Positions 59,203 through 64,000 of a stretch of DNA of 64,000 nt are shown here, piece by piece. Within the stretch, counting starts at the first letter, position 1. Each line of letters begins with the position of its first letter. The DNA is taken from contig NZ_BHVX01000012.1 in the NCBI RefSeq assembly GCF_003851545.1, positions 62,001-126,000 on the forward strand. Direction: 5' to 3'. The position numbers and the translations under genes were made by a program. This DNA is from Ralstonia sp. SET104 (GTDB lineage: Bacteria > Pseudomonadota > Gammaproteobacteria > Burkholderiales > Burkholderiaceae). The notes under the pieces were generated by a model. It was not told the DNA's origin. It did not search any database and saw only the letters and a program-made list of their open reading frames with translations.

Positions 59203-59206
<4 letters not shown>
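58292..59206 (+). CDS. LysR-family transcriptional regulator
   Basis: Regulator of 304 residues. The N-terminal winged helix-turn-helix reads [41 protein letters not shown], and the C-terminal effector domain has [26 protein letters not shown] and [14 protein letters not shown]. It belongs to the CrgA/DmlR-like branch. It is divergent from the MFS gene, the typical regulator-target layout. Its TAG stop overlaps the TAG stop of convergent recQ within a single CTAG (59203-59206). Confidence 0.92.
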
Positions 59207-61116
<1,910 letters not shown>

Positions 61117-61219
61117 CGGGACGGCGGGTGCGCGCGATGTCACGCGCGGGCTGGGCGAAACCGCTATTGTGACAAACCCCGCCGAGGGGTGGTCAATCAG
61201 GGGAATCGGATGATGCCGC

Positions 61220-61810
61220 TCAAACCTTGCGCGCAACGATCCGATGGATCGTCCGCCCCGACGATTGGCTGACGGCCGCCTCGTCGAAAACGAGCTCGGT
61301 GCCGGCCAGCGCCTCACGCACAGGCGCCGCATCGAATGACGTGAACAGCCGGCCGCGCCCATCGCGCTGATCGGCATCGGGCGTCACGCGCCAGCTCAGA
61401 TACAGCGTACCGCCCGGGCGGAGCAACGACACCAGCCGCTGCACCGCCGTGCCGATCTGCTCGGGCGGCAGATGCATGATGACGGTCTCGCAGACAACGT
61501 TGTCGAACGCACCTTCGGCGATGCCCACCAGCTCCGGCAACTGCGCCTGCCGGAACGACAGCCCCGGATACTGCGTGCGCGCCGCTTCGAGCAGCCCTGC
61601 GGAGGCGTCGTAGCCGACGGCCGGATAGTCATTGGCATTGAGCCACGCTACCTCGCGCCCGCTGCCGCAACCGATATCGGCGGTGGCACCACCCACCGTG
61701 AACTCGCGTCGCAGCAGCGCGTACATGTCTTCCGGCACCGGCTGCTCGCGCCATTCCTGCGCGAAGGTCTCGGCGAGGGTGTCGTAGGTGGCAACGGTCT
61801 GCGTGTCCAT
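61220..61810 (-). CDS. SAM-dependent methyltransferase, class I
   Basis: Protein of 196 residues with a Rossmann-type methyltransferase fold. Motif I is [14 protein letters not shown], the acidic motif II residue is D in [10 protein letters not shown], motif III follows [18 protein letters not shown] and the later strand is [10 protein letters not shown]. It resembles the methyltransferase type 11/25 group; no substrate can be named. It sits between the DUF2135 genes (25-base gap) and recQ (about 100 bases), all on the minus strand. It may be a passenger of the putative macroglobulin operon or simply a neighbour. Confidence 0.87.
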
Positions 61811-61835: not shown

Positions 61836-62675
61836 CTATTTCATCGTGAAACTGCGTAACAGCGTCAGATCACCGGCCTTGCGCATCGGCACAACAAAGG
61901 TCTGCTGGCGCTCGGACGGCGTGTTCTCGTCGGTGATGATGGTAACGGTGGCGGTGGTGATGGCGCTGCGATCATTGCCGCTGCCGTAGTAGTTCACGTA
62001 GACGAGGTACGTGCCGGGCACGGGCGCCGGGTTCGAATAGATCTCGGGGCCGTAGCCGGTGGTGACGTCCACGTCGAGCGCGCCGCCGTTTTCGACTACG
62101 CGGTTGCCGTACCAGGCGTGCTGGCCGTCGGGCGAGATGACGTGCAGGTCGAGGTCGGTGCCATCGGTGTCCCATGATAGAACCACGCGCAGGCGCGGAC
62201 GCTGTTTGCCAGCGTAGCTGTCGTAGAACTGCACGCGCTTGGCGTCGCCGCGCGCGCTGCGCACCTCGACGCTGTTGCTGCCGGCGCCAAATGCGTACGG
62301 GCGTGAGAACGCGCCATCGGCCTCGATGCGCTGCGGCATCGCCACGCCGTTGACGACCAGCGTGCCGACCGACGAACCGTCTGCACCACGGCGGCGGCGC
62401 GGCTTGCTGTCATCCGTTGCTGCGGCAGCCTTGGGCTGGTTGCGGATGCGCCCAGCGATCATGGAGGCGGTGCCTTGCCCCTGCGGCGTCGAGACCGACA
62501 CGGCTGGGTAATGCACATCCTGCGTGTAGCGTGAATCGTCGCCGGCCGAGTTGCGCCAGCCGTTGAGCGGCGCGGTGATCTCGACGTTGCCGGCATCGTT
62601 TTGCGCAAAAACGCTGCCCACACCAAGCGTGGCGAATGCGATGGCAACGGCGAGGCGGAAAGTGAAAAGCGTCAT
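61836..62675 (-). CDS. DUF2135 (YfaP-like) secreted protein, second copy
   Basis: Exported protein of 279 residues. A signal peptide ends at VFAQ. The second half matches the YfaP/DUF2135 family: LSWDTDGTDLDLHVISPDGQHAWYG, then GGALDVDVTTGYGPEIYS and the YVNYYG strand, ending VPMRKAGDLTLLRSF. The first half has a basic RRRR loop and a VVNGVAMPQRIEADGAF stretch. It is paralogous to the next gene upstream, from which it is separated by 5 bases. Function is unknown; related genes lie at the 3' end of bacterial alpha-2-macroglobulin operons. Confidence 0.85.
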   Translation of the reverse strand: MTLFTFRLAVAIAFATLGVGSVFAQNDAGNVEITAPLNGWRNSAGDDSRYTQDVHYPAVSVSTPQGQGTASMIAGRIRNQPKAAAATDDSKPRRRRGADGSSVGTLVVNGVAMPQRIEADGAFSRPYAFGAGSNSVEVRSARGDAKRVQFYDSYAGKQRPRLRVVLSWDTDGTDLDLHVISPDGQHAWYGNRVVENGGALDVDVTTGYGPEIYSNPAPVPGTYLVYVNYYGSGNDRSAITTATVTIITDENTPSERQQTFVVPMRKAGDLTLLRSFTMK

Positions 62676-62680
62676 GTGCG

Positions 62681-63484
62681 TCAGAAGCGGATCGATCTCA
62701 TCAGCGCCAGCTCGCCGATCTTGCGCAGCGGCACGCTGACGAACTCGCGCCGCTCGTTGGGCGTGTTCTCGTTATAGATCAGCGTCAGTTGCGCGGTGAT
62801 GAGATCGCGGTCGTGCGCTTTTTCATCGAAGTTGTAGCCGCCGGCGTTGAAGTTGCCCCAGTAGTTCACGTAGAACAGCCAGACGCCGGGGCGCGGGGCT
62901 GCGGTGGAGAAAATCTCGGGGCCGGCGCCATCGACGCTGTCAACGTCGAGCCCACCGCCGTCAGACAGCAACGGCTGCGCCCAGAACGCGTGATCGCCAA
63001 TCGGCGAGATGACGTGCATGTCGACTTCAGCGCGCGGGTCGTCCCAGGTGAGGATGGCGCGCAGCTTGGCCGACGTCTTGGTGGTGTCGGCCTCATAGAA
63101 CTGCAGGCGCTGGTGCGACTGGCCGTCGGGGCTGACGATCTCCACACTGTTCGAGCCAGGGCCGAATGCCCACGGGCGCGCGAAGCGGCCTTCGCCGTCG
63201 CCATACAGCGGCATGGCGTTGCCGTTGACGACCAGCACCGGCGGACGGCGCTGCTTGCCGGCGGCACGAATGCGCCCGGCGATGAGCGTGCGGTACTTCT
63301 GCGCGCCCCGATCCACCGGCGGTTTCGGGTACGCGGCGGTGTACTGCTCCAGCTCGTTGGTCAGCTTGCTGTTACGCCAGCCGCCGATCGGGCCCTCCAG
63401 ATCAGCCACCGGCTCAGCCAGCGCGGAGGCGCCAAGCAGCAAAGCGACAGCCCCCAGCCCCAGGCGCGTCATCCCACTTTTCAC
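62681..63484 (-). CDS. DUF2135 (YfaP-like) secreted protein, first copy
   Basis: Exported protein of 267 residues and paralogue of the gene that follows it. The signal peptide is LGLGAVALLLGASALAE. The DUF2135 core is LTWDDPRAEVDMHVISPIGDHAFW, then GGGLDVDSVDGAGPEIFS, YVNYWG and the end VPLRKIGELALMRSI. GTG 63484 is chosen because GGAGGG lies just upstream and its GTGA overlaps the stop of the DUF2300 gene; ATG 63472, four codons later, is the alternative. Compared with its paralogue, the core has an insert (NFNAGGYNFDEKAH) after the YVNYWG strand. Confidence 0.85.
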   Translation of the reverse strand: MKSGMTRLGLGAVALLLGASALAEPVADLEGPIGGWRNSKLTNELEQYTAAYPKPPVDRGAQKYRTLIAGRIRAAGKQRRPPVLVVNGNAMPLYGDGEGRFARPWAFGPGSNSVEIVSPDGQSHQRLQFYEADTTKTSAKLRAILTWDDPRAEVDMHVISPIGDHAFWAQPLLSDGGGLDVDSVDGAGPEIFSTAAPRPGVWLFYVNYWGNFNAGGYNFDEKAHDRDLITAQLTLIYNENTPNERREFVSVPLRKIGELALMRSIRF

Positions 63485-64000
63485 AGCAAACCCTCCCCTC
63501 GGATCAGGCGACGCGCCATCGCCTCGACAAACTGTTCGTCCTGGCCGCGCGGGTGTCGCGCAAAAGCCAGATGCAGATATTCGTGTGTCAGCGCGATGCG
63601 GTCCTCCTCGGTGGCAAACCGGTGGACATAGAGCCGGTTGCGGCGCGCATCGGCGTACGGCCGGCCTTCGTGCACGACGCATACAGCGGGCAATGGCGGC
63701 GCCTCGTAACCGGGCTCGGCGACCAAGCGCGCCGACCAACCCGGCGCGCGCGCCTGCAACCACCGCTGCGCGCCCGCCACCGCCGAGCAATCCCCCGCCA
63801 CCGGGCTCTGGAACGACGTAAGCGTTGCCTGCGGCCACCACTGGGCGAGGATGGCGTCGAAACTCTGGCCGCGCTGAGCGGCGGCACGCGCGGCGGTCCA
63901 ACTCATCTGGCCGCGTGCGCTGATGGTGCCGTGGTACTGCACGGCTTGGCCGGTCAACACCAGCGTGTCGGTAAATTCGGCCGCGTTGCGCGCGCTGGTC
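63481..64000 (-). CDS. DUF2300 (YfaQ-like) protein, C-terminal part
   Basis: The open frame runs off the right edge of the window; 172 C-terminal residues are visible. SWTAARAAAQRGQSFDAILAQWWPQA resembles the end of the SpoIID/LytB amidase-enhancer fold. The region near the C-terminus has HEYLHLAFARHPRGQDEQFVE, an HExxH metallopeptidase-like motif with a later glutamate. Several cysteines (GDCS, AVCVV) hint at disulfides in the periplasm. Its stop overlaps the next gene (GTGA). By position and motifs it is the YfaQ/MagE-type member of a bacterial macroglobulin operon. Catalytic function is inference. Confidence 0.75.
   Translation of the reverse strand, partial: TSARNAAEFTDTLVLTGQAVQYHGTISARGQMSWTAARAAAQRGQSFDAILAQWWPQATLTSFQSPVAGDCSAVAGAQRWLQARAPGWSARLVAEPGYEAPPLPAVCVVHEGRPYADARRNRLYVHRFATEEDRIALTHEYLHLAFARHPRGQDEQFVEAMARRLIRGEGLL

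Follow-up and report, generated by a model that had tools for sequence, protein, structure and literature searches.

A Ralstonia mag operon whose alpha-2-macroglobulin carries the CXEQ thioester motif

At the right edge of the 64,000-nucleotide stretch of Ralstonia sp. SET104 analysed here (the window; C12:62001-126000 of contig C12), the minus strand carries two DUF2135 genes, which we call copy A and copy B, followed at the edge by the 3′ end of a DUF2300 gene. Read together with a further ~16 kb of the contig (stretch L003, identical to the window where they overlap), the sequence identifies the locus as a complete six-gene mag (yfa-type) operon in the order magB-magC-magD-magE-magA-magF. 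Its alpha-2-macroglobulin (A2M, the magD product) keeps a CXEQ thioester motif that is most likely ancestral, and the encoded complex is most likely a MagB-tethered periplasmic trap that captures its targets covalently; we put the probability of this reading at about 0.75. The operon type is already known, and what is new is its variant state, with a macroglobulin that falls outside its published description.

Bacterial A2Ms, relatives of human alpha-2-macroglobulin, have been split into Type I, which have the thioester and are often encoded beside pbpC, and Type II, which are often encoded in the six-gene mag operon and are described without CXEQ, and how Type II proteins work without the bond has been posed as unclear (PMC5764988; all papers given by PMC number are cited from excerpts). 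A preliminary description of the window, made from its letters, had read this edge as the 3′ end of a yfa/mag-type operon, and the gene set matches the E. coli yfaA-T-S-Q-P order that it cited. It had also predicted DUF2138, DUF1175 and macroglobulin genes beyond position 64000; all three are on the same contig, the A2M of 1630 codons and DUF1175 both within the ~10 kb that it had proposed to read.

Thioester motif in the macroglobulin

Read 5′ to 3′ on one strand, the operon encodes DUF2138, DUF1175, A2M, DUF2300, DUF2135 copy B and DUF2135 copy A. The A2M open reading frame (ORF) has the Pfam domains MG2, A2M_BRD and A2M, and the whole DUF2300 gene, taken from the contig, matches DUF2300 (E=3.5e-48) and SpoIID (E=4e-6). 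The DUF1175 profile matches PDB 7bk8 (MagC, E=1e-106), a link to the P. aeruginosa operon magABCDEF (PA4492-PA4487), where the protein classes are the same as far as seen. E. coli yfaA-yfaT-yfaS-yfaQ-yfaP has five genes in the same order as the Ralstonia operon, but no magA-class DUF2135 is listed there and the operon lies beside gyrA, not rpoC. The K-12 annotation (MG1655; L076 4799-9403) marks yfaS as a pseudogene; at least 80% of a 4000-base yfaS query is present in 5314 of 5426 E. coli genomes.

Residues 1121-1132 of the Ralstonia A2M, YPYGCAEQTASR, include CAEQ with the Cys at residue 1125, and align with YPYGCLEQTASG of E. coli YfhM, a Type I protein encoded with pbpC; the context YPYGCxEQTAS is common to both. 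The preliminary description was right to recommend a search for CxEQ, but it had missed that the published mag-operon A2Ms are described without a thioester, P. aeruginosa MagD among them, in the excerpts of PMC5764988. The Ralstonia protein therefore departs from the published Type II in having CXEQ, and agrees with the published Type I in this motif but not in pbpC adjacency or in grouping with YfhM. Assignment to Type I, as the motif would suggest, was rejected on the basis of a separate clade and other companion genes, with no pbpC among the neighbours read (DUF1175 and DUF2300; further out, rpoC and a methyltransferase gene).

We read 121 loci: the best 80 of 425 from a DUF1175 search in named genomes, ranked by similarity to the Ralstonia protein, 40 from relatives, and the window's own, with partial loci such as L038, L042 and L043 included. 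The site was compared in 116 A2M ORFs of 400 aa or more (shorter ones were uncounted), five of which miss it, leaving YfhM and 110 mag-type ORFs. CxEQ occurs in 97 of these 110, a count that is not independent given that 20 strains are represented twice, once per collection, by the same A2M sequence, and in 77 of 90 once identical ORFs are collapsed; all 12 rows of the window's genus from the genome search and all five Ralstonia from the named-genome set have it. Paraburkholderia fungorum (L093), for example, reads CAEQ. The 13 mag-type A2Ms that lack it come from five of the six Pseudomonas, with Pseudomonas sp. PIC25 (L149) as the sole keeper, all six named Enterobacterales, the K-12 piece, and one locus of the family, L036. 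The site reads GGVEQ, CGVEQ or GSVEQ in these Pseudomonas and GSAEQ in L036, EQ being retained and the Cys gone (in L146 a Cys stands one place earlier); in Enterobacterales it reads GGVVNT, GGVINT or GGAINT, with the whole motif gone. These leftovers resemble stages in a decay of the motif. A CTEQ in another reading frame of yfaS, beside a stop, was dismissed as chance, and the aligned yfaS site reads GGVINT.

Trees of the A2Ms, built with the motif columns left out, placed the mag A2Ms in one clade each time: with SH-aLRT 100 (44 rows, 10 outside rows), with 100/100 under a mixture model (26 rows, 4 outside rows), and with SH-aLRT 100 when all 15 outside A2Ms were used (49 rows). Fourteen outside loci had been fetched, nine entering the 44-row tree, three the 26-row tree, and all 14 plus YfhM the 49-row tree; the five omitted from the 44-row tree include L194. 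The nine of the 44-row tree were labelled Type I because they resemble YfhM (29-40% identity), and a rough motif pattern found no PBP1 in the flanks of these nine loci, so that a pbpC neighbourhood is unsupported there. Every tree has three trait changes inside the mag clade (bootstrap range 3-3 for the motif-less rows of the 26-row tree, in which L149 branches before the other four Pseudomonas), and three losses are the simplest account because 14 of the 15 outside A2Ms carry the motif. The single clade, the three losses inside it and the leftovers at the site together indicate that the CXEQ thioester is most likely ancestral to mag operons.

A different explanation is that CAEQ is a relic, the Ralstonia A2M trapping proteases non-covalently like MagD and the buried site being structurally constrained. 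MagD does trap TEV protease without a thioester (PMC5764988), and Pseudomonas keeps VEQ after loss or shift of the Cys, which suggests that the residues around it are also under constraints of another kind. We nonetheless regard a relic as unlikely, because the Cys is kept in all site-covering rows of Burkholderiales, Rhodanobacter and Methylobacter except L036, despite three losses in the clade, that of L036 included.

Residues 855-880 of the mag A2Ms, in the bait region, have a mean pairwise identity of 0.77 versus 0.53 for the whole protein. We dropped the idea that this signals one dedicated protease, as Type I A2Ms are also fairly conserved there (0.45 versus 0.36 for the whole protein, before a short variable stretch). 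Since 13 of the 16 genomes of the window's genus have a single A2M_BRD match, the Ralstonia mag A2M may also have to do the work of a Type I protein. The other three (G004:C260, G011:C1 and G013:C11) hold an additional A2M, whose open frame spans ~2006 codons. Our literature search turned up no mention of thioester-bearing mag A2Ms among the records listed, and excerpts of a 2026 review (PMC12939704) and of PMC12828279 contributed nothing further; an earlier mention, for example in the 2013 mBio or 2004 Genome Biol papers, is possible.

DUF2135 classes and companion proteins

Pfam assigns DUF2135 to both copies, and their 5-base gap and the GTGA overlap of the copy B GTG start with the DUF2300 stop are as the preliminary description gave them. 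It had also called the tandem unusual, which our loci contradict: a MagA+MagF tandem closes the 3′ end of 71 of the 121, making it the commonest order and normal for the lineage. MagA comes first and MagF last in seven loci (six Pseudomonas and one Methylobacter), only MagF is present, as far as the locus reaches, in 30, and the remaining 13 loci are truncated or incomplete.

A tree of 31 DUF2135 proteins, which included four Pseudomonas loci and one Methylobacter locus with MagA first, splits at 100/100 into a class of 5′ genes with copy B and a class of 3′ genes with copy A. Copy B clusters with the genes that open the Pseudomonas and Methylobacter operons (100/100), and copy A with those that close the Pseudomonas, Methylobacter and Enterobacterales operons. 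On this split, sequence assigns copy B to the MagA class and copy A to the MagF/YfaP class. The alternative raised by their adjacency and shared family, a recent local duplication of yfaP, is ruled out by this tree and has next to no probability: the copies are 41% identical, the split is deep, and class profiles, derived from sequences in that tree, keep the copies found apart with a smallest margin of 36 bits, for a fragment. The genes of the tandem correspond to the DUF2135 genes that stand first and last in six Pseudomonas loci other than that of P. aeruginosa; magA, which is first in the P. aeruginosa operon, lies beside magF in Ralstonia.

By eye, the N-terminus of copy A resembles a signal peptide, and its predicted model comprises an Ig-like domain and a second beta-sandwich domain (pLDDT 78). 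Foldseek matches to the DUF2135 fold were low (TM-scores of 0.05 to 0.26 among the matches listed), and a second look pointed, for the C-terminal half, to TerD, with a weak sequence signal.

MagC reportedly interacts with peptidoglycan, as the title of a 2021 FEBS Lett paper cited by PMC10318531 has it. The Cys-His-His of NlpC/P60 proteins (C83, H180 and H192) is invariant in nine of nine MagC rows, with a His-His spacing of 12, the same as in E. coli MepS. DUF1175 has been read as inactive (PMC10318531), whereas our rows retain all three residues, a pattern that would be compatible with either state. MagE is predicted to consist of transpeptidase-like and lytic-transglycosylase-like parts followed by a C-terminal HExxH part; its N-terminus has a predicted penicillin-binding/class D beta-lactamase fold with SxxK and KT motifs, and H543, E544, H547 and E563 are invariant in 19 of 19 rows. 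The MagE fold search listed no zincin, yet its matches barely cover residues 470-576. In L036, L040 and L140 a short ORF of the HExxH (C-terminal DUF2300) part alone stands in the place of MagE.

Candidate mechanism and competing explanations

In P. aeruginosa, MagD is periplasmic and forms a membrane-associated complex with Mag partners, in which MagB holds it at the inner membrane and MagA, MagB and MagF bind it (PMC5764988). MagA and MagF each bind MagD 1:1, and because MagB can join the MagA and the MagF complex alike, the authors take the binding sites to be separate; cleavage of the bait region makes MagD trap the protease (TEV) non-covalently (PMC5764988). By analogy with this system, the Ralstonia proteins probably form a trap that is tethered to the membrane and bonds covalently to the proteases it captures. 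The A2M would be tethered to the inner membrane by MagB, in the periplasm, with MagA and MagF at separate sites on it. A protease entering the periplasm would cut the bait region, upon which the A2M would change shape, exposing the thioester and forming a covalent bond to the protease; at breaches in the wall, MagC and MagE would bind peptidoglycan or act on it.

Several points weigh against this reading. Complex formation, tether and trapping are carried over from P. aeruginosa, and we infer thioester formation and covalent capture in Ralstonia from sequence; the match to the Pfam thioester domain is weak (TED_complement, E=0.0012, 18.5 bits, below the 22-bit cut-off). Covalent capture may add little, since MagD traps a protease without the thioester (PMC5764988). 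P. aeruginosa MagA and MagF would be DUF2135 proteins, to go by six loci of other Pseudomonas and one of Methylobacter. Loss of the motif is not peculiar to mag operons: in L194, which is nearest YfhM and its kin outside the mag clade, the site reads DSLEQ with the Cys lost, a fourth change. The branch between mag and outside A2Ms is very long, the quick trees came with warnings that long branches join one another, and the order of the deepest splits within the mag clade is not resolved. Lastly, the locus sample over-represents Burkholderiaceae, and its counts are no frequency in nature.

The complex could instead mainly maintain peptidoglycan, the macroglobulin serving as a scaffold and protease trapping being secondary, an explanation to which we give a low probability. 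The NlpC/P60-like MagC, with its reported peptidoglycan interaction (a paper title only), and the two wall-enzyme-like predicted folds of MagE would fit it. So would the E. coli yfaQ deletion, which gives wider cells and a profile that connects to mepS and mepK deletions (PMC12282094), and the protection conferred by P. aeruginosa magD against the wall-targeting type VI secretion effector VgrG3 and, with limited effect, against Tae1, although not against TseH (PMC12663445); magD is dispensable against B. thailandensis (PMC12663445). The retained bait-region domain and thioester motif, however, point to protease capture, and two lineages (L036 with L040; L140) carry just the last part of MagE, with the A2M still there.

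A much more speculative possibility, which we consider very improbable, is that the mag complex arms itself in the manner of complement, with the HExxH part of MagE acting as a metalloprotease that clips the A2M at wall damage, as convertase does C3. If so, the thioester would be fired onto any entrant of the periplasm, proteases or otherwise, injected enzymes that degrade the wall among them, and the versions in most Pseudomonas and in the Enterobacterales would be disarmed. Against this, MagE is reported to be cytoplasmic and no stable member of the complex, and the effect of magE deletion has been read as one on signal-peptide processing (PMC5764988).

Locus, distribution and implications

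The coordinates of the operon and its neighbours are collected in the table below.

Table. Genes of the Ralstonia sp. SET104 mag operon and its flanks; positions are those of the window unless contig C12 is given.
Feature	Position	Strand	Remarks
magF/yfaP-class DUF2135 gene (copy A)	61836-62675	-	279 aa; Pfam PF09906 E=2e-17
magA-class DUF2135 gene (copy B)	62681-63484	-	267 aa, GTG start; PF09906 E=8e-10
magE/yfaQ 3′ part, DUF2300 with HExxH	63481-64000	-	ORF continues, C12:125481 to at most 127337
A2M/magD	C12 127210-132102	-	1630-codon ORF; thioester Cys codon 128728-128730
DUF1175/magC	C12 132021-132740	-	239 aa; Pfam E=5e-60
DUF2138/magB	C12 132737-134575	-	612 aa; Pfam E=6e-156
rpoC, then rpoB	from C12 134801 upward	-	just upstream of the mag operon, same strand
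Methyltransferase gene	61220-61810	-	operon neighbour, kept outside the operon
recQ-like gene	59203-61377		past the methyltransferase gene; named by inspection

In all loci of the genus that reach the respective flank, rpoC lies on one side of the operon and recQ on the other, with the methyltransferase gene present in all that reach the recQ flank except L069; in loci of other genera, the flanks (at most ~10 kb) contained neither rpoC nor recQ. Two DUF2135 matches occur in all 16 genomes of the genus. DUF2135 occurs in 40 of 299 genomes of the family and DUF2138 in two of 369 across the class, the window's own included, so the mag operon is patchy. Among the best 80 of the 425 loci, the closest DUF1175 proteins belong to a Burkholderiaceae isolate, Ralstonia pickettii and other Ralstonia. 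A contig of 4795 bases from a Deferribacteraceae metagenome-assembled genome (L137) encodes a DUF1175 protein 70% identical to that of Ralstonia, and is possibly a misbinned Burkholderiaceae contig.

Thioester-bearing mag operons show operon type and chemistry to be separate traits, and the Pseudomonas and E. coli systems that have been studied look like derived, disarmed forms. The two DUF2135 genes of the Ralstonia operon find an explanation as MagA and MagF. With and without the thioester, the mag A2Ms offer a natural comparison inside one protein clade, in which the role of the bond is directly testable.
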